This document shows positions 21,587-39,393 of a DNA stretch of 64,000 bases, one piece after another. Position numbers and translations under genes: made by a program. The DNA comes from Oscillospiraceae bacterium (GTDB taxonomy: Bacteria > Bacillota > Clostridia > Oscillospirales > Acutalibacteraceae): the NCBI GenBank assembly GCA_902802375.1, contig CADCLS010000006.1, forward strand, positions 19,049 to 83,048, in the 5' to 3' direction. Positions within the stretch are counted from its first letter, which is position 1. Each line of letters opens with the position of its first letter. The notes beneath the pieces are model-generated. The model ran no database searches and was not told the origin of the DNA. It worked only from the letters and a program-made list of their open reading frames with translations.

Positions 21587-24500
21587 CTATCTTTTCCTTT
21601 TTTTCGCTATGAAGAATACAACAAACGCCACTGCCGCTGCCAGTATAACTATAACCGCGGCGCCGAGGGAAACTGCCGTTGTAACAAGCGAAGAAGGTAT
21701 CTCGGTCATATGATTTGAGACAAGTCCCATATTCACTTTGTTGCCTATGTTCTTGCCTGACGAACCGCCCGGCGCAAATACTATCTGACCGCCTGAGTTT
21801 GCAGTAGACGAAACGCCGTTTACCGTAACCTCTAAATTATCAAGATTAACGGTACAGTCAGGAGTTCCGGCAGGAGAACCTATGAAATAAATGCGGAAGA
21901 AATTCATGGCCGCCATATTGAGTCCGCCGCGAGCCTGATTCTGAGGCCTTGTAAGGTCAAAGCAGAAGTGATACCACTTATTGCCCTTTACTTCGCCTGC
22001 TATATCCTTTGCAAGCTCAGGACAAGCCGCCAAAATACCGGTTTTCATATAGCGGTTTGACTCAACATCGCAAGTACCCGATGAGGTCACCTCAACCATA
22101 AATCCTGTAGAGGTTGAAAGGCATGTAATGTCGGACAAGAACAAATCAAACTGCAAATAGTTGTATCCTGTAAGGTCGATAGGCGATGCCGGATGGTATG
22201 CAAGCTCTTTTAATATACCGCCTTTAGCAATTACCGAAACAGAACCGTTACCGGAAACTTTATTCGCAGTATCAAGCATAACTTCCTGACCCGGAGAGGT
22301 CCAAAGCGCCGCGCTTTCTGCCGGATTAATAATAATCTTTTCGGCAGTCTTTACTATGCTTGCCGGAGCTTCACCCTTAGTAAATCTGATATTATCAAGC
22401 TTGAGTGTATAATCAGATGTGGTATCACGCGCCTCAACAGTGTAGAAACGGAAGTAGTTGAAGTTTTTAAGGTTTAGTCCGCCTTTAACCTTCGAGTGCG
22501 GCGTAGAGAGGTTTAGCTTGAAGTGATACCATTTTCCGCCATTTGCGCCACTCTCATAGTCTGCCGCAATAGCAGGCGACGACTCTAAAATTGACGATTT
22601 TGTATATCTGCTTGATTCTTTATCGCAAGTACCCGCAGATGTAAGCTCAAACATCATACCTTTGCAATCATGCAACCAATCAAGATTTGAGAAATACGCA
22701 TCAAATTCAAGATACTGATAATCCGATACATCAACAGCGTGGTCGGGTGTAAAAGCTAACTGTTTAAGAATACCTTTCTTAGCTTCAACAGATATTGATG
22801 TTTCGCCCTGTGTTTTATTCTTGCTATCAAGCTCAACAGAGGCACCGGTTGCCTTCCACCAAATCATATTTTCTGCCGTTGACATCCACATAGCCGTGTT
22901 GTCAATAACAATGCCGTATGAAGGGTCGCCGTAACCGCCGCTTGAAGGCTTTCCGCCGTTTGGTTTTTTTGTAAACCTCATATTATCAAAGCGTACATCG
23001 AAATCAGGAACATCTTCTGTCGGGCTTATAGTGAAAAATCTAAAATAGTTACAGGATTTTTTGTTCATACCGCCGCGAGCTATCGTCTGCGGATTGTTAA
23101 GGTCTAACTTAACATGATACCATCCCGGCTTCCCTGATTTTTTCTTGCCGGCTTCACACAGTTCCTCGGCATTGCTTTTAAGATAACTGAGCATATATCT
23201 GTTGGATTCGTTATCAGAAACACCGGATGAAGTAAGCTCAAACATGATTTCTTTGTTTGTAAACCACTTCATATTTGAGAAATAAACATCAAATTCAAGA
23301 TAATCATAATCGGAAACATCGAGGTCAGCGCCCGGCTTATAAACTATCTGCTTGAGCACGCCGTCCTTTGCGGTAGTTCCGACAGACGATTTTCCCTGAG
23401 TAAAGTTCTCTGTATCAATCACTACACCGCCGTTTGACGCCCATTTATCTTTGCTCTCAGCATCAGAGAACCACATAGTTGCTTCTACAAGAACATCCTT
23501 ATCTGAGCCGGGGGTCGGCAGGGCGTCAGTGCGTAAATAAGCGTTATCAAAGTAAACTGTCGAGCCCGAATCGCACTCTACTGCAAAGCTGATTGAAGAA
23601 ACAGTTTTAAGGAGCGTTGAGCTATTTGCCAAAACCTTACCTTCGCCGTTCATAATACGGGCAAAATTAAATGTATAAGGTTTATAATCCGTGCCCGATA
23701 TTTCGTATTTTGAATCAAGCTTAGTACCGGTAACTATTGAAGGATAATATACCTCGTCACCCACAGAAAGCTGCATTGACAGCTTAGGAGTTGACGCTCC
23801 GCCGTTTTTAACATATACAGTAATGCCTGTATATGCATCAAACTGATTAGCCGAAGAACCGAGAGTAACAACCGGAGAAAGAGTTGCTTTTTTGGCAATA
23901 ATATCAAGCTTGGCATTTGCCTTTCCTTCAATGCAACCCTCATCGGTAAAGCTTAATACTGCACCGTCAGACACAGTGTAAGCATTCTCAAAGCCTGAAT
24001 CTGTGGTTTTAAGCGGATTCCAAAGGGCATCGCTATCAAAATATCCCCAATCCATACCGAGATAGTAGGTTGATTTTACCTTATCGCTTCTGTAAGGAAG
24101 CGCCGGAATGCCAAGCGAGTTTGCAAGGTTTGATAACATATTGAACGAACTCCAAGCATAAGTTACCGCAACAGGAGAAGTAATGTTATCATTGTAAACT
24201 TCAACCGTATTAGCCGAAGTTAATCTTGCGGTTGCCTCGGTAAACACTCTCGATTTATCTGCTATTGCAAAGCCGTGAATAGTTTTTTCACCGCCTAAAA
24301 CCGTAAGTCCGGCACCGACATTTTTGAAGGTTAAAACAACTTTTTTGCCGTTTATCTTCATTGAGGAAACAGTAGGTGCATTACCTGCGTCCGCATTTCC
24401 GATACCATAGAATGAAGCCAATGCCGCATTTGCAAATCTATCTGCAACCTCACGCTTGCTGTTCGGATGTATCGGGTCCTGATTGACAATCGGTGGGTCC

Positions 24501-26716
24501 TTATAGGTAAGCGGCAAATCGTAAATCGGTATATGAATCATTCGGCTTTTGCCCGATTTTGCAACATCGTTAAGCATATCTGAAAAATCCGCTTGAATAG
24601 TCAGATAATCGTTTGCCCTGATATGAGCGTTGTTATATGGAGCAAGATGTGCACAAATGAAAGGCATTTTACCTTCTTCGAATCCAAACAAATCACTATA
24701 TGCCGTGAGCATATCCTCAAGTGCGTTTTTATAGAAGGTATTATAGCCGTCATCATCAGCATATTTTACATTGCTTTCACCCTGATACCACAACACACCG
24801 CTTATCTCTATGCCTGCAAGAGGTGCGATTTTTGTATTATAAAGGGTTGTGAGATATTGCCAGTTTGCAGAAACATCAGCAAGTTGTTCCTCGGTATAAT
24901 AGATGTTGCGATTTTGCAAGGTTGATTTTATAAGCTGATTATTCTCAATAGCCTCTCGCGGAAGCCAGGATTCTATAACAGAAGCGCCTTTTGCCGTGTT
25001 TATAAAACCTACGGGCACATCCAAACTGCTCTGAAGCTTTAATGACATCATATATCCTATTGCCGAAACATATTTGATATCGACAGGATTACCGCCGTTT
25101 GCCCACCTTGCGCCTTCAATATCAGTAACGGGGACTGCGGAAAGCTTTGAATTAACTCCTCCCGGGACTACCGGCTCATCAAAGAAACGGACATTTGTAT
25201 TGGTAAGACCGGTATAATCATTATTCATTACTGTCTGACCTACGGTATATTCCATATTGGATTGTCCTGAAGCCAGCCAAAGCTCACCGATAGCTATATC
25301 ATTAATTGAAGTTTCAAGCTTTGAATTTACATAAATATCAATTTTGTATGTATCGTAACTGCCGGCGCGTGAACTGAAAGACAGTTTCCAATCGCCGTTT
25401 TCTTCGGAAATTGCGGTTTTTTCTTCATCGGAAACGCCATTTTTGAAAAGTACGGCGCGGATGTTTTTTCCGCCCTCTTTTACATTACCGAAAACATTCA
25501 TCGGACTGTTCTGTTTGAACATCATACCGTCCGAAAAATATGTGCTTACAATTCTTTCTTCCTTATGAGTGGTGATTGCTATATTTTCAATTTTTACATT
25601 AAAGGTGCTGTCACCGTTTTTTTGACTGTAAAAACGGAAGTAATTAACGCTTGACAAATCAAAAATACCGTTTGTTGTAGTACCGGCATCTGCCAATGAT
25701 ACTCTTACTTTATTGAGCCCCGATTTAAGAGACAAGCGCGGAACAGACCAGTTAAGCTCTTGAACATCACTTTTACCTGAAGATGTCAGTTCTATCTGCC
25801 CGTCACGGGTTAGGTCGACCATATTGTCCGTACCGTCGGTATTCTCAACTGTTACATCCATAATAAGGTAAAGGTCGCTTTTTTGATAGGCTGATAAATC
25901 GTATGAAAATTCACTCGATACAAACGCAAAACTGCCGGTCGTATCGGTTTTGGAAAACTTGCCGGGTATTGGATAAACACCCTCAGGCACTTGTTCCTGT
26001 TGCTTTGTTGCCTTTACATTATCCATACGAATTACACCGTCCGGAACAGTATTCACATATGTATTTTCACTGGTATAAAAACGGAATGCCGTAAGAGCCG
26101 AAGCGTCAAAATTGCGCTTTACAGTGGCATCATCAAACACGGCTTTCATATGAACCCATGTTCCATTTATGTCGGTAATTTCCAAGGCGTCAAAACGGAA
26201 AACCAATGAATTGCTTTGATTATTTGCAGGACTGTTGCCATTTGAGAAGAAACGCACATATCCGATTTCTTTATATGCGTTTTGGATTGCCTGCCAACCG
26301 CCGGCACCGGTAAAGCATACATCCCACTCGAAAGCATCGCATCCGGAAACATTAACCGCAGAAGGCAACTCATAATATGCCTGGAAAAAGCCGTGACCGG
26401 TGTTTGCGGCGATTGCACCGTCATCACTTTGAGCTTGTGCACGCTCTGTTGTTATACTGAGCGCATTTTGGGTTGAATTCACCTTGGTCCACCCGGTAAG
26501 AACATCACAGTTCGTGATAATAACTTCTTCCTGTGTGGGAGTGGGGTCAGGAGTAGGCTCAACCGGAGAAGAATCGGCGGTTACTTTAATATTATCAAGA
26601 CGAACCACACCGTTCGGAACAGTATTCACATATGTGTTCTCACTGGTATAGAAACGGAATGCCGTAAGAGCTGAAGCATCAAAATTGCGCTTTAAGCGAT
26701 AGTGCCGGATTGTCAC
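21587..26716 (-). CDS. Sialate O-acetylesterase-type (SGNH) surface protein with repeated binding modules, N-terminus lost
   Basis: The open frame covers 1709 codons. The N-terminus holds the tail of one module (FDASALTAFRFYTSENTYVN), a proline-rich linker (EPTPDPTPTQ) and a complete copy of the same module. An SGNH esterase domain of the SASA/DUF303 type follows at about 400-790, with GQSNM (Ser near 485), WYQGESN and DPIHP (near 750). Three tandem jelly-roll repeats fill about 1090-1660 (each with YFRFYT- or YFRFFT-like strands). A C-terminal transmembrane helix and KKRKR tail anchor it to the membrane. It would deacetylate a decorated glycan outside the cell. No signal peptide is present, and the GTG start at 26716 lies in DNA of the truncated GH38 gene. 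The gene is therefore 5'-truncated and perhaps not exported. Tandem homology makes an assembly collapse possible. Confidence 0.8.
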   Translation of the reverse strand: MTIRHYRLKRNFDASALTAFRFYTSENTYVNTVPNGVVRLDNIKVTADSSPVEPTPDPTPTQEEVIITNCDVLTGWTKVNSTQNALSITTERAQAQSDDGAIAANTGHGFFQAYYELPSAVNVSGCDAFEWDVCFTGAGGWQAIQNAYKEIGYVRFFSNGNSPANNQSNSLVFRFDALEITDINGTWVHMKAVFDDATVKRNFDASALTAFRFYTSENTYVNTVPDGVIRMDNVKATKQQEQVPEGVYPIPGKFSKTDTTGSFAFVSSEFSYDLSAYQKSDLYLIMDVTVENTDGTDNMVDLTRDGQIELTSSGKSDVQELNWSVPRLSLKSGLNKVRVSLADAGTTTNGIFDLSSVNYFRFYSQKNGDSTFNVKIENIAITTHKEERIVSTYFSDGMMFKQNSPMNVFGNVKEGGKNIRAVLFKNGVSDEEKTAISEENGDWKLSFSSRAGSYDTYKIDIYVNSKLETSINDIAIGELWLASGQSNMEYTVGQTVMNNDYTGLTNTNVRFFDEPVVPGGVNSKLSAVPVTDIEGARWANGGNPVDIKYVSAIGYMMSLKLQSSLDVPVGFINTAKGASVIESWLPREAIENNQLIKSTLQNRNIYYTEEQLADVSANWQYLTTLYNTKIAPLAGIEISGVLWYQGESNVKYADDDGYNTFYKNALEDMLTAYSDLFGFEEGKMPFICAHLAPYNNAHIRANDYLTIQADFSDMLNDVAKSGKSRMIHIPIYDLPLTYKDPPIVNQDPIHPNSKREVADRFANAALASFYGIGNADAGNAPTVSSMKINGKKVVLTFKNVGAGLTVLGGEKTIHGFAIADKSRVFTEATARLTSANTVEVYNDNITSPVAVTYAWSSFNMLSNLANSLGIPALPYRSDKVKSTYYLGMDWGYFDSDALWNPLKTTDSGFENAYTVSDGAVLSFTDEGCIEGKANAKLDIIAKKATLSPVVTLGSSANQFDAYTGITVYVKNGGASTPKLSMQLSVGDEVYYPSIVTGTKLDSKYEISGTDYKPYTFNFARIMNGEGKVLANSSTLLKTVSSISFAVECDSGSTVYFDNAYLRTDALPTPGSDKDVLVEATMWFSDAESKDKWASNGGVVIDTENFTQGKSSVGTTAKDGVLKQIVYKPGADLDVSDYDYLEFDVYFSNMKWFTNKEIMFELTSSGVSDNESNRYMLSYLKSNAEELCEAGKKKSGKPGWYHVKLDLNNPQTIARGGMNKKSCNYFRFFTISPTEDVPDFDVRFDNMRFTKKPNGGKPSSGGYGDPSYGIVIDNTAMWMSTAENMIWWKATGASVELDSKNKTQGETSISVEAKKGILKQLAFTPDHAVDVSDYQYLEFDAYFSNLDWLHDCKGMMFELTSAGTCDKESSRYTKSSILESSPAIAADYESGANGGKWYHFKLNLSTPHSKVKGGLNLKNFNYFRFYTVEARDTTSDYTLKLDNIRFTKGEAPASIVKTAEKIIINPAESAALWTSPGQEVMLDTANKVSGNGSVSVIAKGGILKELAYHPASPIDLTGYNYLQFDLFLSDITCLSTSTGFMVEVTSSGTCDVESNRYMKTGILAACPELAKDIAGEVKGNKWYHFCFDLTRPQNQARGGLNMAAMNFFRIYFIGSPAGTPDCTVNLDNLEVTVNGVSSTANSGGQIVFAPGGSSGKNIGNKVNMGLVSNHMTEIPSSLVTTAVSLGAAVIVILAAAVAFVVFFIAKKRKR

Positions 26717-28974: not shown

Positions 28975-29646
28975 TTAAAGCTGATTTTGTGTTTCCGTAA
29001 ATGGGAGAAGAGAAATTTCAAGATTCCCATTTTTAGTACGAAGTTCATCAATAAACGCTTTTTCTTCTGCCGGATTTTTAAGTTGAACCTTATAGGAAAG
29101 TCTGAACATACTTCCCATTCCCGTTGTTTTAACGCCTGCATTTTCATATTTTTTCAGATAATGAGAAAATATGTCATCAAAGGTTCCGTTATATTCAAGC
29201 GATTCCGGTATTGTAATGCGTAGTAATTGATCTGATGCCATACTTTTATGTTCAAATAAAGTGACAAAGCTAAGGAGAAGAAATAATACCGAAAGACCAA
29301 GTAAGATAACAACGCCGTAACCGATATATCCCATACCGAATGCAATGCCTGAGCCCATTGCAATTAAAATTGAAGCGATTTCATCTGCACTGCCCTGTGC
29401 GGAACGAAAACGAATAAGACTGAATGCGCCACCGATTGCAACGCCGGCGCCGATATTCCCGTTTACAAACGTTATAACGGCGGCGACAACAAACGGTATC
29501 AGTGCCGTAACGATAAAAAACCGTTTTGTTGACCGAATGCGAAAACTCATAATCCAGGAATATATGAATCCTGTTACGAGCGCAACAGCTGTCATAATAA
29601 AAAACTGTGATGGGGTTACAGTTGATGTGTAAATGGAATCAAACAT
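28975..29646 (-). CDS. DUF4956 membrane protein
   Basis: This 223-residue protein has about four membrane helices in its first 130 residues. They include the conserved GAGVAIGGAFSLIRFRSAQG segment that marks DUF4956. A cytoplasmic C-terminal domain follows (LRITIPESLEYNGTFDDIF). It is the last gene of the operon, 16 bases after the VTC-type polymerase gene. DUF4956 and VTC-type genes are often adjacent in Clostridia (from memory), so the pair probably forms one membrane machine, though its product is unproven. The ATG follows AAGGAG. Confidence 0.87.
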   Translation of the reverse strand: MFDSIYTSTVTPSQFFIMTAVALVTGFIYSWIMSFRIRSTKRFFIVTALIPFVVAAVITFVNGNIGAGVAIGGAFSLIRFRSAQGSADEIASILIAMGSGIAFGMGYIGYGVVILLGLSVLFLLLSFVTLFEHKSMASDQLLRITIPESLEYNGTFDDIFSHYLKKYENAGVKTTGMGSMFRLSYKVQLKNPAEEKAFIDELRTKNGNLEISLLPFTETQNQL

Positions 29647-29662
29647 AATAAATTCTCCTTGT

Positions 29663-30361
29663 TCAAATTATTTGTGCTTTTATAAGTTGCTGGCGGTACG
29701 CTTCTCCGTATTTTGAAAAACTGCTTTTCCTTATTTCGCCTTCGGAAAGGATTTTCGCAAGCCACATAGGCATCGCTTCCTGTACCTTTATTTCGAGAAT
29801 TGTATAACCTTCATCAAGAAGCGAGATGCCGTCCATAGATTTAGTAAGCGTCAGGTCACCTACACGGTATCTGGGGTTTTCGTCAATTGTGAGCCTTAAG
29901 TTTCCGTCCGGCTCAAAGTATGCGGTACGGTCATAAATAATCATACAAGCCGGAACAAGTGTTTTATAGTAGTCGCGAAAAACTGTTATCTCACGGTTTA
30001 TCTGTCCGGGAGAGCAGATATCACCCTCACCCGAAAAGAACTTATGCACCAGTGGAATGGTAGTTTCAACTCGACGCTTATATACGATACCGTATGCCTT
30101 GCGTTTAAGCTCAAGAAAAACCGGAGATGTATCGGTAGCAATTCCGTATGAGCGCAAGCGTATTTTTTCTTTGAAAAGAGGCTTTTCAACGCTTGTTCTG
30201 ATCAGTTGGTATGTAGGTGTATCATAGTATAAGGAAGCAATAGATGTTTTACCGTACTTATCTACCTGCATATGTCCCTTAAGTCTTTCACGAAGAAAAT
30301 CTGTTTGCTTGGCGTTTAACAGATATTTAAGCTCATATCGTTTCATTACCGTTATTGCCAA
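29663..30361 (-). CDS. VTC-domain polyphosphate polymerase family protein
   Basis: This 232-residue protein matches the VTC catalytic tunnel domain throughout. It has MKRYELKYLL near the start, KEKIRLRSYG, FLELKRKAYGIVYKRR, YDRTAYFE, RLTID and the C-terminal ILEIKV. These supply the basic and acidic residues that bind nucleotide and phosphate in the family, so it may make polyphosphate from ATP. There is no membrane helix, so anchoring may come from the DUF4956 partner. A TTG start at 30361 is preferred because GGAGG lies 8 bases upstream, while the ATG at 30346 is too far from it. No other phosphate gene is nearby. Confidence 0.88.
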   Translation of the reverse strand: MAITVMKRYELKYLLNAKQTDFLRERLKGHMQVDKYGKTSIASLYYDTPTYQLIRTSVEKPLFKEKIRLRSYGIATDTSPVFLELKRKAYGIVYKRRVETTIPLVHKFFSGEGDICSPGQINREITVFRDYYKTLVPACMIIYDRTAYFEPDGNLRLTIDENPRYRVGDLTLTKSMDGISLLDEGYTILEIKVQEAMPMWLAKILSEGEIRKSSFSKYGEAYRQQLIKAQII

Positions 30362-30377
30362 AGTACCACCTCCGGTA

Positions 30378-31598
30378 TCAAAGTGTTATGCGAATGGAAA
30401 AAATTCCGCCGAAAACCGTAGCCGATATGCGCCCGTTGTGCGCTTTTACTATCTCTTTAACATAAGATAGTCCGAGCCCGGCGCTGTTCTCTTTTCTGTT
30501 TTCCAAAGTGGTAAAGCGGTCAAATATCTGATTTACCGGACCATCCGGAAGCTTCGTGTCATTTTTCGCTTCCAGCAAAACATAACCGTTCTCGCTCTTC
30601 AATGTAAAAATTGCCTTTGTTAAAGAATACTTGATCGCATTATCAATAAGTTCATCGATCAATTTATTGATTGCTTCGGGATCAGCTAAAAGCGTTATGT
30701 CAGGCGCTATATCGGCAGTCAACTCAATCCCATGTGAAACGAAGTTTTCTGTATGCTTGTCGAGTGCGGCACACAGAAATTCTGAAACGGGTACTTCGCT
30801 TATATTCATATTTCCGTCGTCAAATATTCCGATTGTTCCAAGCTTATCGACAAGTTCGTTCAATTTGCCGATTTGTCGTCGTGTCGAACGGGTTTGGTCA
30901 TCGGGACCGTATTTTCGTTCAGCAAGTTCGGTATTTCCATTTATAATCGTAAGAGGAAGCCGAAACTCTTTGTTTGCACTTTTTATAAAGTTCCTTTGTT
31001 TTCTGTCAGCGTCTTCTATAGGCGCATAGATTTTTCTGGCAATACTATGAAGCACAAACCAACCTATGATTAGACAAAGCGCCTCACCAATCGCAGAAAT
31101 TATTAAAATTCTGAAGGACGGAAGCAACTCGCGTCCTTGATCTATGACCGTTACGTAGGTCGTACCGTCTTTTTTATATACACGATATCGGTATGACCAC
31201 TTTGTCCATCCTGTTTTTTCTTTTAATAATGATTTTGCCCATTGTTTGGCATCATCTTCCAACACCGCCGATATATTAAAAGCAACTGTTTCTGCATTCT
31301 CGCCCTTATTTGAAAAGGCGATTGTAAAATATCTTATAGAAGCGTTGATTTCAGGCGAATCGGGTCCCATAGGTCCCATTCTGAAATTTCTGTCTTTCGG
31401 TTCTGATATTATGTCCTCTGAAACAGTTTCGACTCGCCCAAAAGAGCCTTGTCTATCGGCAATTTTTTGTGTGATATCATCGGCATCGTTTGCCGCCATT
31501 GTGAAGTTCACTCCGTTTATAACAGTAAGAAGTACAGTCAACAGGACAAAGATCACAAAAATTGCATATAATCTGAATTTCTTTTCCGCCTTATTCAT
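30378..31598 (-). CDS. Degenerate sensor histidine kinase (phospho-acceptor histidine missing)
   Basis: This 406-residue protein has two membrane helices (about 11-30 and 165-186) enclosing an extracellular sensor, then a HisKA-like and HATPase-like region. The H-box reads SANKEFRLPLT, so Lys210 stands where the phospho-acceptor His should be. The N-box ELIDNAIKYS is kept (Asn320). The DxGxG nucleotide motif is not recognisable (KNDTKLPDG instead), while a GLGL segment remains near 375. It probably cannot autophosphorylate in the usual way and may act as a pseudokinase or a binding sensor. ATG 31598 overlaps the end of the regulator gene, so the pair is translationally coupled. The TTG at 31616 is a less likely start. 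Confidence 0.85.
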   Translation of the reverse strand: MNKAEKKFRLYAIFVIFVLLTVLLTVINGVNFTMAANDADDITQKIADRQGSFGRVETVSEDIISEPKDRNFRMGPMGPDSPEINASIRYFTIAFSNKGENAETVAFNISAVLEDDAKQWAKSLLKEKTGWTKWSYRYRVYKKDGTTYVTVIDQGRELLPSFRILIISAIGEALCLIIGWFVLHSIARKIYAPIEDADRKQRNFIKSANKEFRLPLTIINGNTELAERKYGPDDQTRSTRRQIGKLNELVDKLGTIGIFDDGNMNISEVPVSEFLCAALDKHTENFVSHGIELTADIAPDITLLADPEAINKLIDELIDNAIKYSLTKAIFTLKSENGYVLLEAKNDTKLPDGPVNQIFDRFTTLENRKENSAGLGLSYVKEIVKAHNGRISATVFGGIFSIRITL

Positions 31599-32187
31599 TT
31601 TGTGCCACCAATTCAAATCCTTTCTTCGCCTTGTACTTTATTCTAGTTTCGGTACCAATTTTTCCAAATTTTGTGTTAAGTGCATTTATATACACACCGT
31701 CATTTGCGGCTATGCTCTCACCGTTTAATAGTGCGCGTAAAACCTTTATCTCTCCGGCGGTCAAACTCGGACCGCCGGTAATTCGGTATCCCGGAACATT
31801 TATTTCAACATCGCCTACGGAAAATTGTTCGTCTGATGAAACACAATTCAGCGTGTCTTTAATTTCATCACAAATCTTTTCAGGCGTAAACGGATATGAC
31901 AACCATGAATTAGGTAGAGGAGGTTCGGTCAAGTCGTGTGCGCTGACAGGACAGTCGTTTAGTGCAATAACCGGAATTTCTTTATCCTGTATCCGTTCTA
32001 TCAATTCTTCATAATCAATTCTCGGAATATTTCTGTCCAGTATGACAATATCAAAATCTTCCGTTGCCAGAAGTGAGATAACTTGGGTTCCATCAAACGC
32101 TGTGACGGTTTCTCCGAAATCGATTTCAAGCAATTTCTTATAACACTCGAGCAGATCCCTGTCCGGTGCGGCAAAGAGTATTCGCAT
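31591..32187 (-). CDS. Degenerate OmpR-type response regulator
   Basis: This 198-residue protein has an N-terminal receiver-like domain (1-115) and a short winged-helix-like C-terminus (from about 140: SLTAGEIKVLRALLNG). The receiver keeps Asp51 (IVILD). The acidic pair expected at 7-8 is Ala-Pro (FAAPD), the conserved Thr/Ser is Asn77 (VIALND), and the conserved Lys is Tyr98 (LSYPF). It probably does not use normal phospho-switching. The C-terminal DNA-binding domain is shorter than the roughly 100 residues of OmpR relatives. ATG 32187 follows AAGGAG, while longer in-frame readings lack a ribosome site. It lies 20 bases after the surface lipoprotein gene. Confidence 0.82.
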   Translation of the reverse strand: MRILFAAPDRDLLECYKKLLEIDFGETVTAFDGTQVISLLATEDFDIVILDRNIPRIDYEELIERIQDKEIPVIALNDCPVSAHDLTEPPLPNSWLSYPFTPEKICDEIKDTLNCVSSDEQFSVGDVEINVPGYRITGGPSLTAGEIKVLRALLNGESIAANDGVYINALNTKFGKIGTETRIKYKAKKGFELVAQNE

Positions 32188-32207
32188 AAGCGTTTCTCCT
32201 TTTCTTA

Positions 32208-33851
32208 TTAAGATGATACGGTAACACTGCTGTAACACGATGTACCGCCGTATGCATTTGCATTGTTGAATGTGTATGATGCTCCGTTGATTTTTACCGT
32301 GTGACTTCCTGAAGAATGAAGTGAGAGCGAATATGATTTTACACTACCGCCGGTACTGACTCTGCCGTAACCGAGCACGATCAGTGTGCCTCCTGAAACA
32401 GCAACCTGACCGTCGGCATCAATAGCCGCCGCATTTTGACTGTTCGGGCCTCTGGTAATCACAACACCGCCTGTCTGCATATAATTACCGTTACTGTCGA
32501 TGCCGTCTGTATCTCCACTCGGCGAAACGGTAACATCAAGATATCCACCCGTGACATTGATTGCGGCAGCAGAATTGCCTTTTGTTGCGTTCACACCGTC
32601 GTCATTTGCAGACACATAGGATTTTCCGCCGGAAACATTTATAACATTTGCTTCAAGTCCCTCGTATGCGCTGTCAATATTTATTGTACCACCGGAAATG
32701 TTCAGCACATTATCTGCGTGGATGCCGTCCGCACCGGAAACGGTCTGCTGGCCGCCCCAGCCGCCGGGACCCATTTGTCCGCCTGCGGTTTTATTTGCCG
32801 GCGCATAAACATTCATATTCACGGTGCCCCCTGAAATATTGACAGTTCCCTGACCGTTGGTGCCGTCTTCTAATGATGTGCCATAATCTGCATGAAGACC
32901 GTCATCGTAGGTTTGCAGTGTAAGGCTGCCGTCTTTTATATTCAATTCATTTTGAACCTTAACGCCCTTATAGGAGGATGTTGACGCATCAGACGCTGTA
33001 TATCCGCTATATGATCCCGTATATACCGTAACATTAGGTGCAACACCTTCTTCGCCGGTTGTCATTTCAAAATTATGTGCCGCCTCAATACCGTCACCTG
33101 CGGCATAGACCGTAACAGTACCGCCGGAGAGAGTGATGTCACCTCGGGTGACTCCGTTTTTATTCACATCGGTATTTTCGGTCTTAACACCGTCTCCATT
33201 TGTGGAAACAGCAACAACAGTTCCGCTTGTAACACTTATCGAATCGTTGCCCTTAAGTGCATTATTGTATGCAGAAGATTTTAAGGATAGATTCTGAACA
33301 GTCAAATCTTTTGTTGTATGGATGCCGTTGTTATACGAAGCGTTGACTACAAGAGTTCCGGTGCCTTTAATTTTCAAATCGCAAGTCGCATAGATTGCGC
33401 CTTCCCCCTGATTCTCGTCATCAGATGCTTTAGTGCTACGGGTATCGCTTATTACATTTTCCGTACCCTTCTTCGCAGATATATCAACATTTCCCGCTGT
33501 AATCACCTTGATCGGAGAATCACTTCCGTATGTGATTGTTGCCCTGGAAAGTTCAATAACCACCTCGTCAGTTTCTCCTGCATCAACAATGATTTGCCCT
33601 TCAAGCAGACCGGTTGCAGTATAAGTACCTGCCGAAGATATTGTGTATATTTTTCCTGAATTGCTGAATGTTCCGTCTTCCGATGTCATAGAAAAACTGC
33701 CTGTTGCTTCCTTTGCAGTAATATTCTGATCCACTGCCGCTGTTGTAGAATCGCTTGCTGTATCGGAAGTGGTTTCATCGTTTTCCGCTCCGCAAGCAGT
33801 GAGCACGGTAACAAGCATAACCGCTAATAAAATTGATAAAAACTTTTTCAT
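32208..33851 (-). CDS. Cthe_2159-like carbohydrate-binding surface lipoprotein
   Basis: This 547-residue lipoprotein has the signal MKKFLSILL and lipobox LTAC with Cys20. It then has an acidic Ser/Thr linker and a long array of short turns such as NISGGTVNM, NVSGGKSYVSANDDGVNA and SVTSGTVVAVSTNGDGVK. This is the right-handed beta-helix pattern of the Cthe_2159 family (PF14262), described as binding cellulose or polygalacturonate with calcium. ATG 33851 follows AAGGAG, and upstream in-frame codons overlap the promoter region. As the first gene of the operon with the degenerate two-component pair and the VTC/DUF4956 genes, it may be the surface structure that this module builds or senses. Confidence 0.87.
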   Translation of the reverse strand: MKKFLSILLAVMLVTVLTACGAENDETTSDTASDSTTAAVDQNITAKEATGSFSMTSEDGTFSNSGKIYTISSAGTYTATGLLEGQIIVDAGETDEVVIELSRATITYGSDSPIKVITAGNVDISAKKGTENVISDTRSTKASDDENQGEGAIYATCDLKIKGTGTLVVNASYNNGIHTTKDLTVQNLSLKSSAYNNALKGNDSISVTSGTVVAVSTNGDGVKTENTDVNKNGVTRGDITLSGGTVTVYAAGDGIEAAHNFEMTTGEEGVAPNVTVYTGSYSGYTASDASTSSYKGVKVQNELNIKDGSLTLQTYDDGLHADYGTSLEDGTNGQGTVNISGGTVNMNVYAPANKTAGGQMGPGGWGGQQTVSGADGIHADNVLNISGGTINIDSAYEGLEANVINVSGGKSYVSANDDGVNATKGNSAAAINVTGGYLDVTVSPSGDTDGIDSNGNYMQTGGVVITRGPNSQNAAAIDADGQVAVSGGTLIVLGYGRVSTGGSVKSYSLSLHSSGSHTVKINGASYTFNNANAYGGTSCYSSVTVSS

Positions 33852-33903
33852 ATAATTACTCCTTTTAGTTTTAACAAGAAAATCTTCATCTGTTGATATC
33901 ATT

Positions 33904-33936
33904 ATCATAACAGATGAAGATTGAAAAAAGATTGAA
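33904..33936 (-). promoter_or_regulatory. Activator-type promoter of the lipoprotein/VTC operon
   Basis: On the minus strand TTCAATCTTTTTTCAAT (33936-33920) is a direct repeat of TTCAAT with an 11-base period. It stands where a -35 element would be, and 10 bases later comes TATGAT (33909-33904). The same 17 bases occur at 38525-38541 before the first two-component operon. Direct repeats with one-turn spacing are typical binding sites of OmpR-family regulators. Confidence 0.65.
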
Positions 33937-33977
33937 AACGGTATTATGTACTTTGTTTTATTTAATATAACACTTAC

Positions 33978-35207
33978 TTAAATATCAACCGAAAAACTGA
34001 TGGTGTTTCCGGAATAAGAAACCTTCATTTTTCCCTTCATTCGTTCAACGATTTCCTTTGCCATAGAAAGCCCTATGCCGAAGCCGGCTTTTTCCGAATT
34101 ATGTGATTCATCTTTACGGTAGAAACGCTCAAAGAATTTTTCGGTGTCTGCATTTTTTCCCTCCGCATAGGTGTTTGAAACCGAAATGCGTACGCCTTTC
34201 CGATAAGAATTTTTTTCAAGGCTGACTAAAATGTCGCCGTTGTCATCACAATATTTGACAGCATTATCAATAAGCACCGACACAACATGCTGAATACTTC
34301 TCTTATCACATTTGATACTCAAATCCGTAGCTATTTGGGTTGATAATGTTTTTCCCGAGCTTTCCGAAACACTACGGAATGATTCTGCGGTTTCAGAAAC
34401 GATTGCAGATATATCAACATCCGTCATATCTGCCTCTTTGATTTCATCTGCCCTTGTCAGAACAACTAAATCTTCAATAAGAGTATTAAGGCGGGTAATT
34501 TGCCTGTGAGTGCTGTCCGTCCACTCCGTTTTTCCGCTTAAAACCTCTGTCATATCCGTGTTTGCCGAGATAACAGCAAGCGGAGTCTTTAATTCATGGC
34601 TTGCATTTGTGATAAAGCGTTTCTGTCTTTCATCATTTTCAACAAACGGTCTAATCAGCTTTTTAGAAAAAGCAAGTATCACAATAACATAAAGAATAAG
34701 CACCAAAAGCCATATCCCTGACATATATGTCATTGTAAGGCGCTGCATGGCATAGCGGCTCGTACTGTCGAGCAGAACCAAAGTAACCGAGCCGTCTTCT
34801 GATGATTTTTTCACAAATCGAAATATTCGTTTTCCTTCAATATCAATACGCCCGTTGTTATAATTCTCTTCAAAAGCCCTATTGATAATGGAATTCATCT
34901 CGTTTTGCGGCATCGCTATGCGCGTAACGGTAATATTGACGCCGCTATCGCCTTTAACTGCGGTTAAAAATCGTGTTTCATAAACAGACTCGTCTTTAAG
35001 CGCAAGGAATCTCTCCTGGCTGGGATCAAACTCAAACCGTTCCGGCAAGTCGCCGCCATTATCAATTATCATATTCAAAAGTACATCGGTCTGCCGGTTT
35101 ATTACTTCCGTTGTTATCCAATACACAATGCCGGTCACCGTCGTGATTACTAATAAAAGTACTAAGGCAGAGCCCCATATAAATTTTCTTTGTAACTTCT
35201 TAAACAT
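33978..35207 (-). CDS. Sensor histidine kinase (canonical), second two-component system
   Basis: This 409-residue kinase has membrane helices at about 11-31 and 163-181 with an extracellular sensor between them. The dimerisation domain carries NASHELKTPLA with His204, and the ATPase domain carries NAVKYC and GFGIGLS. ATG 35207 is chosen because GGAGG lies 6 bases upstream. It overlaps the end of its regulator gene, which implies coupled translation. It would phosphorylate the regulator encoded just upstream. The signal is unknown. It is the last gene of the five-gene signalling operon. Confidence 0.92.
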   Translation of the reverse strand: MFKKLQRKFIWGSALVLLLVITTVTGIVYWITTEVINRQTDVLLNMIIDNGGDLPERFEFDPSQERFLALKDESVYETRFLTAVKGDSGVNITVTRIAMPQNEMNSIINRAFEENYNNGRIDIEGKRIFRFVKKSSEDGSVTLVLLDSTSRYAMQRLTMTYMSGIWLLVLILYVIVILAFSKKLIRPFVENDERQKRFITNASHELKTPLAVISANTDMTEVLSGKTEWTDSTHRQITRLNTLIEDLVVLTRADEIKEADMTDVDISAIVSETAESFRSVSESSGKTLSTQIATDLSIKCDKRSIQHVVSVLIDNAVKYCDDNGDILVSLEKNSYRKGVRISVSNTYAEGKNADTEKFFERFYRKDESHNSEKAGFGIGLSMAKEIVERMKGKMKVSYSGNTISFSVDI

Positions 35208-35874
35208 CCCTGACCTCCGTAATACGGTAACTGCTTGAATCGTACGCATTTATTTGTGCATTTGCCTTTACAGATTTAAGTTTATCATTAAGAAAAGATA
35301 TGTACATCCATACAATGTCGGGTGAAGTATCTTCGCCAGACCAAACATCCAAAAGCAGTTCGTCCGCCGTCATATTTTTATCCGAGTTTAAGAGCAGACA
35401 GCAAAGTAGCCGAACCTCTTTTTGAGAAAGAGCTATCGTATTATGTGCACGAAGCTCTGATGATTCGGTATCAAGTTCAAGATTTCCGAATGTAAATGTT
35501 CGTGTTTTATAGTCCCTCTTCCTGCGATAAAGTGCCCGCAATCTCGCGCTGAGTTCTTGCATTGCAAACGGTTTTGTTAAATAGTCGTCAGCGCCGGCAT
35601 CAAGCCCTTCAACGCGATCCGAAACCTCTGATTTTGCGGTCAGGAATATAGCCGGAATGGTGTTTCCGGCTTCCCGTATCTTTTTCATTGCTGTAACACC
35701 GTCCATAACAGGCATCATTATATCCATAATTATAACATCGTAGGCATCCTTTGAAAGTTTATCAACCGCTTGAGACCCGTTCGCCACGGCATCAACATAA
35801 TAGTCCTGAAATTCAAGGTATTTTTTGATAACCTCTCTTAAATCGTTTTCATCTTCTGCAAATAATACTTTCAT
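35200..35874 (-). CDS. OmpR-family response regulator, second two-component system
   Basis: This 224-residue protein has a complete receiver (acidic pair in FAEDEN, phospho-acceptor Asp51 in IIMDIMMPVMDG, Thr/Lys in FLTAK and YLTKPF). It also has an OmpR-type winged helix from about 125 (TFGNLELDTESSELR, QKEVRLLCCLLLN). It acts as the DNA-binding output of the adjacent kinase. It is a candidate to bind the TTCAAT direct repeats at 33920 and 38525, as is the regulator at 37804-38484. Confidence 0.93.
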   Translation of the reverse strand: MKVLFAEDENDLREVIKKYLEFQDYYVDAVANGSQAVDKLSKDAYDVIIMDIMMPVMDGVTAMKKIREAGNTIPAIFLTAKSEVSDRVEGLDAGADDYLTKPFAMQELSARLRALYRRKRDYKTRTFTFGNLELDTESSELRAHNTIALSQKEVRLLCCLLLNSDKNMTADELLLDVWSGEDTSPDIVWMYISFLNDKLKSVKANAQINAYDSSSYRITEVRDV

Positions 35875-35888
35875 AATATTTCTCTGCC

Positions 35889-36494
35889 TTATCCTCTTAT
35901 TATTCTTCTGAGCGTCTGCATTGACACATCACAAGATGCTAATTCATTGGCACATCGATGAAGTTCCGAAACAATCAATTCTTGATTCTTAATGTCTCTT
36001 TTATATTTCAGCTCATGTTCCAGTGCCGCCCAGGTATCCATAGCTATTGTACGAAGCTGAACCTCAACAAAAAAGTGACCTGGAGTATTTCCGTCTATAT
36101 CCGAAAAATGGGTTTCCATATCCAAAATCATATGATAACTCCGGTACCCGTTTGGTTTAGCATTTTTAATATAATCTTTTTCTTTAACGACAGTGCAACC
36201 CGGAATTGATTTTATCAACGCAACATTTTTGTAAACATCGTCAATAAATAGACAGACAACGCGAATTCCTATAGAATCGGTCAGGCTTCGCAAAGCATGG
36301 TATGTTGTCGGTTCAAGACCGTTTCTTTCAAGTTTTTCAAGCATACTTTCTTCGTCTTTTATCCTATACCGGAGATGTTCGTACAGTTTTTCTCCTGTCT
36401 TTTCTTCATGCTTTCGGCTGTTTATTTCTATCGTCCTTACAAGATTATTCATAATTCCAGTCATAGCATTATAATATTTGCCGTAAATACTCAT
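35889..36494 (-). CDS. Small alarmone synthetase (RelA/SpoT synthetase domain only)
   Basis: This 201-residue protein consists of a single (p)ppGpp synthetase domain without hydrolase or TGS domains, like YjbM/YwaC-type enzymes. Visible motifs are the ATP-binding RIKDEESMLEKLER, the catalytic region DSIGIRVVCLFIDDVY, KDYIKNAKPNGYRSYH and the substrate motif VEVQLRTIAMDTWAALEHE. It should transfer pyrophosphate from ATP to GTP or GDP. It sits 24 bases after one kinase gene and 14 bases before the next regulator gene, so it is cotranscribed with two two-component systems. This placement is unusual and suggests that alarmone output is tied to envelope sensing. Confidence 0.9.
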   Translation of the reverse strand: MSIYGKYYNAMTGIMNNLVRTIEINSRKHEEKTGEKLYEHLRYRIKDEESMLEKLERNGLEPTTYHALRSLTDSIGIRVVCLFIDDVYKNVALIKSIPGCTVVKEKDYIKNAKPNGYRSYHMILDMETHFSDIDGNTPGHFFVEVQLRTIAMDTWAALEHELKYKRDIKNQELIVSELHRCANELASCDVSMQTLRRIIRG

Positions 36495-36518
36495 TATTTC
36501 CTTTTCCTTACATACAGA

Positions 36519-37811
36519 TTATTGCTTATTGTTCCTCTTTTTAGGCAACAATACAGTAAATATAACTTTTCCGTCTTTATATTCTGCGTGTATCTTGCCG
36601 CCGTGCGCTTCAGTCACCGCTTGTGCTATGGAAAGTCCAAGCCCGTAATGAGACCCGATATCGGTACGCGCCTCGTCCGTGCGGTAAAAACGGTCAAACA
36701 GATGCGTAAGTTGCTCTTGGCTTAATTCCTTTGTATCGTTTGAAACCGTGAGTACCACAAAATGATGTTCACAGCAAAGCGACAGCGTTATCATCTCACC
36801 TGTGCCGTGAGATAGAGCATTATCCAGCAGAATAGAAACAAGTTGGCGAAGTTGATTTGGATTTCCTTCGACCGTTAGTCCGTTTTCAATATTTGACTGT
36901 ATTTGCTTTCCTTTTTCAAAAGCAAGCGTTTCAATAGGGAGAACCTCCCCGTTTACTAAATTTGAAAAATCAAGAATTTCTTTCGGTATTTCTCTGTTTT
37001 CGGCTTTGGAAAGGAAAAGAAGTTGTTTCACAAGGTCTGACATACGCTCATTTTCATAATCAATGTTATCAAGCCATTCACTTTCACCGATTTCGCGCCT
37101 TAACAGTTCGCTATTTGCAGAGACAACCGCTATTGGTGTTTTAAGCTCATGACCCGCATCGGACACAAATCTTTTTTGTCGCTTGTCATTTTCTTCAAGA
37201 GGGCGGACTATCCGCCGCGCAATAAATATGGAAATTACAAATAAAAGAATTAACGCTAAAGAGCCAATTATAAGCATCTGACGAAAAAGCCGCATTTGAT
37301 TATTGTTATTAATCGTTCCGTCAATCATAGCAACAAGTGTGTATTCTTCCCGTTCTTCAACAATATATGTCATGTTGCCTGATTTACCGCTATTCTTTCC
37401 TTTTTTTAGAATCTTTGACGCAATTTGTGTCAAAGATTCTTCGCTTTGGAGAGCGTTATTGCCGTTGTTTATATTAAGGACTTCGCCGCTTTTGGAATAG
37501 GCAACAGAGTAGAATGTCGAAAGCCGGAATTGCGGTTCATTTTGTTGGGGTCTTTCGCCAAAGGGTCCGCGTGGCTCATTAAAATCCGAAGGTCTGTTAT
37601 CGGATTCGCTATCAGGTCTTGTTCCGTCTTCATGAGGTGAAGGCTGTTCTTCAAGTGAAAATCTTTCAGCATATGTTTTCAACATCTCACGACTTTCACG
37701 GTTAATTGCCATACGGTTTGAAAGATATATCGTAGTCAATGTGACAATCATCAAAGTAAGAAGAGAGAACACAACTGTAAAAACGATCTTTCTCCTCGTT
37801 TTATCAAACAT
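36519..37811 (-). CDS. Sensor histidine kinase (canonical), first two-component system
   Basis: This 430-residue kinase has membrane helices at about 10-29 and 178-197. Its extracellular part contains a Pro/Asp/Arg-rich stretch (EDGTRPDSESDNRPSD) and a small sensor. The H-box DAGHELKTPIA carries His221, followed by an ATPase domain with DNALSHG and HYGLGLS. The ATG overlaps the stop of the regulator gene by 8 bases, so translation is coupled. The signal is unknown. Confidence 0.92.
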   Translation of the reverse strand: MFDKTRRKIVFTVVFSLLTLMIVTLTTIYLSNRMAINRESREMLKTYAERFSLEEQPSPHEDGTRPDSESDNRPSDFNEPRGPFGERPQQNEPQFRLSTFYSVAYSKSGEVLNINNGNNALQSEESLTQIASKILKKGKNSGKSGNMTYIVEEREEYTLVAMIDGTINNNNQMRLFRQMLIIGSLALILLFVISIFIARRIVRPLEENDKRQKRFVSDAGHELKTPIAVVSANSELLRREIGESEWLDNIDYENERMSDLVKQLLFLSKAENREIPKEILDFSNLVNGEVLPIETLAFEKGKQIQSNIENGLTVEGNPNQLRQLVSILLDNALSHGTGEMITLSLCCEHHFVVLTVSNDTKELSQEQLTHLFDRFYRTDEARTDIGSHYGLGLSIAQAVTEAHGGKIHAEYKDGKVIFTVLLPKKRNNKQ

Positions 37812-38484
37812 CCTTACACCTCAATTCATATCCTATTCCGCGCAGTGCTTTTATTTCACATCTTGATCCTACAAAAGCAAGTTTCTTCCTTACAAAAGAT
37901 ATATATACTTCAACATTATTATATTCGGAATCACTCTCATACCCCCAAATTTTGAGCGCGATCTGCTCACGGGTAAGCACTTGCCCCTGGTTGGCAATGA
38001 AATATTCAAGTATGCGGAGTTCCTTTTCGGCAAGTCGCACGCTCTGCCCATTTTCACATTTCAATGTAGCATTTTTAACATCTATTTTCAAATCCTCATA
38101 AGTTAAACTTCCGTCATTTGTCGGCATGTTGCGACGACCAAGCGCACGAAGCCTGGCAAGCAGTTCCTTTGTCATAAACGGTTTAGTTAGATAATCATCA
38201 GCACCGCTGTCAAGTCCCTCGACCTTATCGTCAAGTTCACTTTTAGCAGTAAGCATAAGTATCGGCGTGCGTATACCGGATGCCCGTGCTTTTTTAGCAA
38301 CATCATATCCGCTCAATCCAGGCATCATCACATCAAGAACACACAAATCGTAAATGTTACTTTCTATCTCATAAAGTGCATCTTCGCCGTTATCTACAGA
38401 GGTAACTTCATATCCTTCCTGGCGCATAATCTCACACAACGCACGATTCATTCTTTTTTCGTCTTCTGCAAGTAATACTTTCAT
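37804..38484 (-). CDS. OmpR-family response regulator, first two-component system
   Basis: This 226-residue protein has an intact receiver (LAEDEK, Asp51 in CVLDVMMPGLSG, LTAK and YLTKPF) and an OmpR winged helix (VRLAEKELRILEYFIANQG, then REQIALKIWGYESDSEYNNV). It is the first gene of the signalling operon. The ATG follows GGAGG by 8 bases. The promoter upstream carries the TTCAAT direct repeat, so it may regulate itself and the operon at 33.9 kb. Confidence 0.94.
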   Translation of the reverse strand: MKVLLAEDEKRMNRALCEIMRQEGYEVTSVDNGEDALYEIESNIYDLCVLDVMMPGLSGYDVAKKARASGIRTPILMLTAKSELDDKVEGLDSGADDYLTKPFMTKELLARLRALGRRNMPTNDGSLTYEDLKIDVKNATLKCENGQSVRLAEKELRILEYFIANQGQVLTREQIALKIWGYESDSEYNNVEVYISFVRKKLAFVGSRCEIKALRGIGYELRCKDV

Positions 38485-39184: not shown

Positions 39185-39393
39185 GCTTCATCCCTCACTT
39201 TCAAAATCCATTTGTCTACCTCCGGCGTTAATACATCCCAAAGGAAATCCCTCTTATTCAGTGTCACAACATATTTAACGGCTTCAGTGGGCGAAACAAT
39301 TCTCTTTATAAGTTTTCGGCAACAATCCGCAAGTGCTTCACGGTAAGCTTTTTCTATCGGCTTATTTATATAAGCGTTTATTAGTGCCGTCAT
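39181..39393 (-). CDS. Small hypothetical protein, 5' end at the Rhs junction
   Basis: From ATG 39393 this is 70 residues, helical and basic in the first half (YREALADCCRKLIKRI) and ending in DKWILKVRDEA. The open frame runs on to 39471, but that extension is antisense to Rhs-type sequence and lacks a ribosome site, so the native start may have been lost when the Rhs fragment arrived. It is translationally coupled to the 148-residue gene by a 4-base overlap. Function unknown. Confidence 0.5.
   Translation of the reverse strand: MTALINAYINKPIEKAYREALADCCRKLIKRIVSPTEAVKYVVTLNKRDFLWDVLTPEVDKWILKVRDEA

Follow-up and report, generated by a model that had tools for sequence, protein, structure and literature searches.

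DivL of Caulobacter is a pseudo-histidine kinase, a protein with the fold of a histidine kinase (HK) that lacks the phospho-acceptor His, and it senses whether a canonical regulator is phosphorylated. A protein of the same kind, here termed HK3, is encoded in the window analysed in this study, a 64-kb stretch of contig CADCLS010000006.1 from an Oscillospiraceae bacterium. Unlike DivL, HK3 is co-encoded with a receiver protein, RR3, which itself is missing key residues; the two genes are followed by those of a VTC-domain polyphosphate polymerase homologue and a DUF4956 protein. To our knowledge the control of Gram-positive VTC/DUF4956 cassettes is unexplained, and the HK3-RR3 pair is a candidate regulator of them.

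Pseudo-receivers are defined by the lack of at least one of five active-site residues, their alpha1-beta2-alpha2 surface has been flagged as likely functional, and their switching was termed a mystery in a 2025 review (Bourret et al. 2025, PMC12632262). According to the same source, 0.9 percent of HisKA domains lack the His and 2.0 percent of receivers lack the Asp; of the 20 bacterial atypical regulators it describes, 18 are orphans and only two are not. RR3 fits this definition, and its conserved edge is the alpha1-beta2-alpha2 region flagged for pseudo-receivers (PMC12632262), but unlike the orphan pseudo-receivers it is encoded with a pseudokinase. In the CmrRST system of Clostridioides difficile an atypical regulator is likewise encoded in one operon together with a kinase and a second regulator; these other two members are described as an otherwise normal system (PMC12632262), whereas the kinase beside RR3 also lacks its His. 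VTC-type polymerase and DUF4956 genes co-occur in Gram-positive pel clusters beside surface-polymer genes (PMC7112168). There they are found with CotH and Pel; the genes studied here instead accompany a pseudo two-component pair and, at most loci, a lipoprotein of the Cthe_2159 type. No description of a dedicated kinase-receiver pair in which each partner is inactive was found in the titles and abstract openings searched or in the sections of PMC12632262 consulted. Pseudo-receivers have been described before, and so have pseudo-histidine kinases; here the two inactive partners come as a tight pair tied to one pathway, a natural experiment in which two-component architecture exists without its chemistry and conformational signalling is apparently retained.

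Active-site residues and predicted structures of HK3 and RR3

The features under study are located in the window as follows.
30378..31598, minus strand: HK3, pseudo-histidine kinase of 406 amino acids from an ATG (the listed open reading frame begins further upstream at a TTG)
30969-30971, minus strand: Lys210 codon of HK3, which occupies the phospho-His position
31591..32187, minus strand: RR3, pseudo-receiver of 198 amino acids whose winged helix has no helix 2

A first search of 60 relatives retrieved two near-complete HK3 orthologues and one cut at a contig end (G014), a partial piece scoring 78 bits that was recognised from its score and neighbour genes. An HK3 profile was searched against 398 genomes of the family and 394 of the order, and a larger profile against 391 genomes of the class, with just a few candidates scored per genome. 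A scan of named contigs yielded 31 loci, comprising 24 members of the HK3 clade and seven non-members. Removal of 11 duplicate loci (in each case the same contig under two collections) left 37, and together with one locus from another order these form the final set of 38 distinct loci. The H-site is readable in 36 HK3s (L127 and L044 end before it), and RR3 at 37 of the 38 loci (L088 ends before it). The comparison set of canonical kinases has 65 rows (64 distinct), including 18 HK1 and four HK2 sequences, the kinases of two intact pairs upstream of the cassette, from clade loci; because the searches began from HK3, these are its nearest canonical relatives and not a random set.

The sequence-only reading of the window had placed Lys210 of the motif SANKEFRLPLT at the position of the phospho-acceptor His, and this was borne out. 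HK3 has a Pfam match to HATPase_c (2e-12) and none to HisKA; by eye, the DHp stretch around Lys210 contains no other His, and no true H-box was seen elsewhere in the protein. The His is absent from all 36 readable members of the clade and present in 65/65 canonical rows, as well as in 16 of 16 further canonical rows, two of which repeat earlier genes. At this site 35 HK3s have Lys (19), Arg (7), Gln (3), Ser (3), Asn (2) or Met (1), and the 36th, from the other order, has Lys. On the clade tree the residue changed 13 times among six different residues and never to His in the sampled sequences; the conserved trait therefore is the absence of His and not the presence of Lys. Lys210 is thus not conserved as such, and its interpretation as a gained functional residue was rejected. 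Recent decay was rejected as well, since a canonical His was found in none of the 36 members.

The DxGxG box, which had also been listed as missing, is indeed absent from HK3, but its absence is uninformative. The Asp column holds Asn in all 65 canonical rows, HK1 and HK2 included, and in 33 of 34 pseudokinases; its loss is therefore a trait of the subfamily and was rejected as a sign of decay. The N-box Asn (N320) is kept in 35/35 HK3s and the FDRF and GLGL motifs in 33 or 34 of 34, which makes nucleotide binding by HK3 plausible. Sequence and structure model together predict a first transmembrane segment (TM1), an extracellular alpha/beta domain, a second segment (TM2) leading directly into DHp, and a Bergerat ATPase domain, with a single long helix in the model from before TM2 into DHp. 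The fold matches include CpxA and DivL, whose structure 4q20 is also a sequence match (4.3e-20). HK3 accordingly combines a histidine kinase fold and a retained ATPase fold with the lack of the His that characterises the kinase of a canonical OmpR-type system. One member (L144, 1451-3013, minus strand; genome G538) lies in a 521-residue open frame with two HK3 matches roughly 100 residues apart and apparently carries an insertion in or beside the extracellular part.

In RR3, the Pfam model Response_reg scored 31.4 bits, barely above its cut-off of 30.2, and no DNA-binding model matched. The residues previously read from the sequence, Ala7-Pro8 instead of the acidic pair, Asn77 instead of Thr/Ser, Tyr98 instead of Lys, and a retained Asp51, are all present in the window protein. 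Position 8 is acidic in 0/37 RR3s and position 98 is Lys in 0/37, while Asp51 is retained in 32/37 and position 7 is acidic in 3/37; Asn77 is not conserved as such, with Thr or Ser at this site in 21/37. Arg10, Asp11, Phe31, Asp32, Gly33 and Pro99 are invariant in 37/37. A receiver fold is predicted with confidence (pLDDT 93.4, pTM 0.88), and the model matches solved OmpR-type regulators, so that RR3 has the fold of a canonical receiver without its full set of acidic pair, Asp, Thr/Ser and Lys. A feature overlooked by the sequence-only reading is the winged helix, which in the window model has no second helix and hence is not the complete domain of a canonical OmpR-type system. A shortened form of this domain is kept in 23/37 RR3s, and the domain is absent in 14/37; the difference between full and short RR3s maps to six changes on the tree, of which the starred branches force at least five (33 rows scored). 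Among 22 scored full-length RR3s, T143, E146, N171, K173, I183, Y185 and G190 are invariant.

Conservation was compared over the 18 loci that carry both HK3 and HK1. HK3 equals HK1 overall (0.69 vs 0.66) and exceeds it in the extracellular core (0.75 vs 0.63), while it is somewhat less conserved in DHp (0.78 vs 0.86) and drops to 0.55 vs 1.00 at the H-site. RR3 is conserved at 0.68-0.77 in beta1-alpha1-beta2-alpha2 and at 0.27-0.37 in alpha3 with its loop, alpha4 and alpha5, with RR1 at 0.78 or above throughout; the loop after beta5 of RR3 (Pro99-Phe100) reaches 0.75.

Distribution, selection and gene linkage

HK3 members were detected in 10/398 family genomes and 15/394 order genomes (own genome included, three common to both), and in 2/391 class genomes, one of which belongs to another order. 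Among the matches listed for the family and the order, no member scores below 274 bits and no other kinase above 187. Of the 24 member titles from the contig scan, ten mention rumen, omasum or reticulum and 13 bear RUG or RUI codes, which we take to denote rumen collections. HK3 and RR3 form a conserved module that has been kept across several families and a second order. Within the genus, the pair occurs in 3/37 genomes (G000-G036; own counted), yet it is present in other families and another order, and the window HK3 stands at 69% to that of G055 from another family vs 41% to the N-terminal piece from G014 of the same genus. This patchy distribution suggests horizontal transfer or repeated loss.

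In a quick kinase tree a branch with an SH-aLRT value of 100 and a length of 1.33 separates the pseudokinases from all other rows. Since this tree is midpoint-rooted and the stem is long, the exact attachment of the clade is unsure. HK1 and HK2 group with the canonical kinases, so that an origin of HK3 from either neighbour is unsupported, and this quick tree gave no sign that the pseudo-pair arose by decay of a copy of the pairs next to it.

Purifying selection acts on HK3 as well as on RR3. Ratios of nonsynonymous to synonymous substitution rates (dN/dS, omega) were estimated by the pairwise Nei-Gojobori method for pairs with dS 0.15-1.5, which are mutually non-independent. The median is 0.189 for HK3 (108 pairs) vs 0.177 for HK1 (18 pairs), and 0.345 for RR3 (98 pairs) vs 0.063 for RR1 (20 pairs). 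The rounded values of 0.19 and 0.35 are well below 1, the value that had been named as evidence for decay, and RR3 is relaxed relative to RR1 yet constrained.

Linkage was counted at loci with sufficiently long flanks. RR3 precedes HK3 in 37/37 testable loci, VTC follows in 34/34 and DUF4956 in 33/33, so that the earlier question of whether linkage to the VTC and DUF4956 genes is maintained is answered in the affirmative. The overlap of the RR3 and HK3 frames noted before amounts to 8 nt in the window and recurs in 28 of 35 pairs, the remainder ranging from a 4-nt overlap to a 43-nt gap. On the minus strand, which carries all cassette genes, the order is RR1-HK1, a small RelA/SpoT-type gene, RR2-HK2, the Cthe_2159 lipoprotein, RR3, HK3, VTC and DUF4956. 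The operon with a beta-helix lipoprotein, VTC and DUF4956 proposed from the sequence was recovered by Pfam matches and coordinates, and both upstream pairs, which had been called intact, score normally against Pfam.
28975..29646, minus strand: DUF4956 protein (Pfam match)
29663..30361, minus strand: VTC-domain polyphosphate polymerase homologue (PF09359, 143 bits)
32208..33851, minus strand: Cthe_2159 beta-helix lipoprotein (lipobox LTAC read by eye), the usual gene before RR3
33978..35249, minus strand: HK2, intact histidine kinase, optional neighbour
35200..35874, minus strand: RR2, intact OmpR-type regulator, optional neighbour
35889-36494, minus strand: small RelA/SpoT-type alarmone synthetase gene between HK1 and RR2
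36519..37811, minus strand: HK1, intact histidine kinase, optional neighbour
37804..38484, minus strand: RR1, intact OmpR-type regulator, partner of HK1

The lipoprotein gene lies before RR3 in 27 of the 38 loci and after DUF4956 in three others. Where at least 4 kb upstream were available, RR1-HK1 was found in 19/31 loci and was missing from the examined stretch in 12/31; the intact pairs are optional neighbours of the cassette. The only VTC gene found in the window genome is the cassette copy. A profile built from nine chosen VTCs matches yeast Vtc4 (3g3q) at 7.6e-12, and K12, R68, R70, E84, K86, R145, E190 and K192, basic and acidic residues that we take to be catalytic, are invariant in these nine, in keeping with a predicted polyphosphate polymerase. 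Proteins of the Cthe_2159 type are reported to bind cellulose and pectic sugars (PMC6712302).

Proposed signalling role and alternatives

The absence of His throughout the clade, dN/dS far below 1 and the unbroken linkage support the earlier proposal of a phosphorylation-independent role rather than simple loss. We suggest that HK3 and RR3 signal at the membrane as a dedicated pair, do so without phosphotransfer, and act on the VTC/DUF4956 machinery, not on transcription, a reading to which we assign an even chance of being correct. The mechanism is only moderately established, and we infer its docking and output steps. The extracellular domain of HK3 would sense a signal from the cell surface or envelope, ATP binding could supply a second input, and these inputs may shift the conformation of the DHp and ATPase domains. 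RR3 would remain docked on HK3 via its conserved beta1-alpha1-beta2-alpha2 half, and the unit could gate or localise the VTC/DUF4956 machinery through direct contact. The membrane polyphosphate machinery is proposed as the output because the sensing half, the DHp/ATPase core and the receiver edge are kept and VTC and DUF4956 are constant companions. A dock without phospho-residues has precedent, as one fold match of HK3, 6rh8, is by its title a complex of the HK853 H260A mutant with the RR468 D53A mutant. In its most specific form the proposal describes a phosphate-free two-component system, in which a nucleotide- and ligand-driven shape change of the transmembrane pseudokinase is read by a permanently docked pseudo-receiver that gates VTC/DUF4956 at the membrane; this version is put forward tentatively, as possible but less than probable.

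Several points weigh against such a role. The HK3 structure model is modest (pTM 0.38), and the contacts proposed between RR3 and HK3, as well as those of either protein with VTC or DUF4956, are conjectural; a common operon could reflect co-expression alone. With Asp51, the Thr/Ser site and an acidic position 7 retained in the numbers given above, weak phosphorylation by another donor is possible. The beta5 loop is as conserved as the alpha1/alpha2 edge, which is therefore not the sole conserved surface, and the invariant winged-helix residues mean that nucleic-acid binding is still possible in full-length RR3s. RR3 also evolves faster than the normal regulator RR1, and in the closest pair (window vs G012) its omega is 0.565 at a dS of 0.05, with changes too few to weigh.

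The alternative that fares best is that HK3 and RR3 modulate an intact pair, through heterodimers of HK3 with a kinase such as HK1 or through competition by RR3 for docking on that kinase. The presence of RR1-HK1 upstream at 19 of the testable loci fits this idea, as does the match of the HK3 extracellular-domain profile to 43/65 canonical rows at E<1e-3 (HK1s weakly), and competitor models of this kind have been discussed for CmrT (PMC12632262). It is at odds with the 12 loci at which the pair is missing from the examined stretch. Eleven genomes without RR1-HK1 at the locus were searched (two of them, G119 and G747, with short flanks), and in nine, which are 64-100 percent complete, no HK1-like protein of at least 300 bits was found; G398 and G255 have one. 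Eight of these nine do contain more distant kinases (125-210 bits), whereas G909 yielded no match at E<=1e-20 other than its pseudokinase. Obligate dependence of HK3/RR3 on HK1 is thereby weakened, and we consider modulation of an intact pair unlikely.

Retention of a shortened winged helix in the majority of RR3s, with several invariant residues, would suit a role of RR3 as an atypical transcription factor of the OmpR type, active without phosphorylation and sequestered by HK3 as an anchor, and atypical regulators acting unphosphorylated are known (PMC12632262). Helix 2 is missing from the window model, however, the entire domain is absent in 14 RR3s through repeated forced changes on the tree, and the elements of the usual dimer face, alpha4 and alpha5, rank with the most variable regions of RR3. 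DNA binding is unlikely to be the output of RR3, and this alternative as a whole appears improbable.

HK3 might also serve as a phosphatase or nucleotide sensor for another regulator, with RR3 as an accessory, an explanation that its retained ATPase motifs would allow. The Thr of the canonical HELKTP motif plays a role in phosphatase activity, and it is replaced by Leu, Val, Ile or Met in 35/35 HK3s; moreover, no intact partner regulator is constant across the clade loci. Even though the His is dispensable for HisKA phosphatase activity (PMC12632262), we regard this explanation as very improbable. Neutral decay of a redundant pair, which would account for the lost catalytic residues and the relaxation of RR3 relative to RR1, is hardly credible given that the members listed in the family, order and class searches have no internal stops, the dN/dS of HK3 equals that of HK1, Arg10, Asp11, Phe31, Asp32 and Gly33 of RR3 are invariant, and gene order is preserved across families and a second order.

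Neighbouring genes and further observations

Canonical regulator-kinase pairs adjoin VTC, DUF4956 or Cthe_2159 genes in 18/43 canonical rows when flanks of about 1.5 kb are considered (two rows represent the same locus; examples are L010, L011, L012, L013, L014 and L023). The cassette thus occurs in canonical and pseudo versions.

The RelA/SpoT-type gene is also found near the cassette in L036, L105, L104, L135 and L044, and alarmone control and polyphosphate control may possibly be linked via this neighbour.

When the window is compared with G012 (L036), its nearest relative, dS is 0.04-0.18 for RR1, HK1, the lipoprotein, RR3 and HK3, and 0.53-0.58 for VTC and DUF4956. This jump suggests a recombination breakpoint (window 28975-38484 vs L036).

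Two large open reading frames (ORFs) lie farther out. A 1709-residue ORF on the minus strand (21587-26716) has repeated modules, a C-terminal membrane segment (by eye) and a GTG start inside the preceding ORF, and may represent a surface protein that has been truncated or shifted. On the opposite strand, immediately upstream of the operon, positions 39333-41495 (plus strand) encode a 720-residue protein that by eye resembles RHS/YD-repeat proteins.
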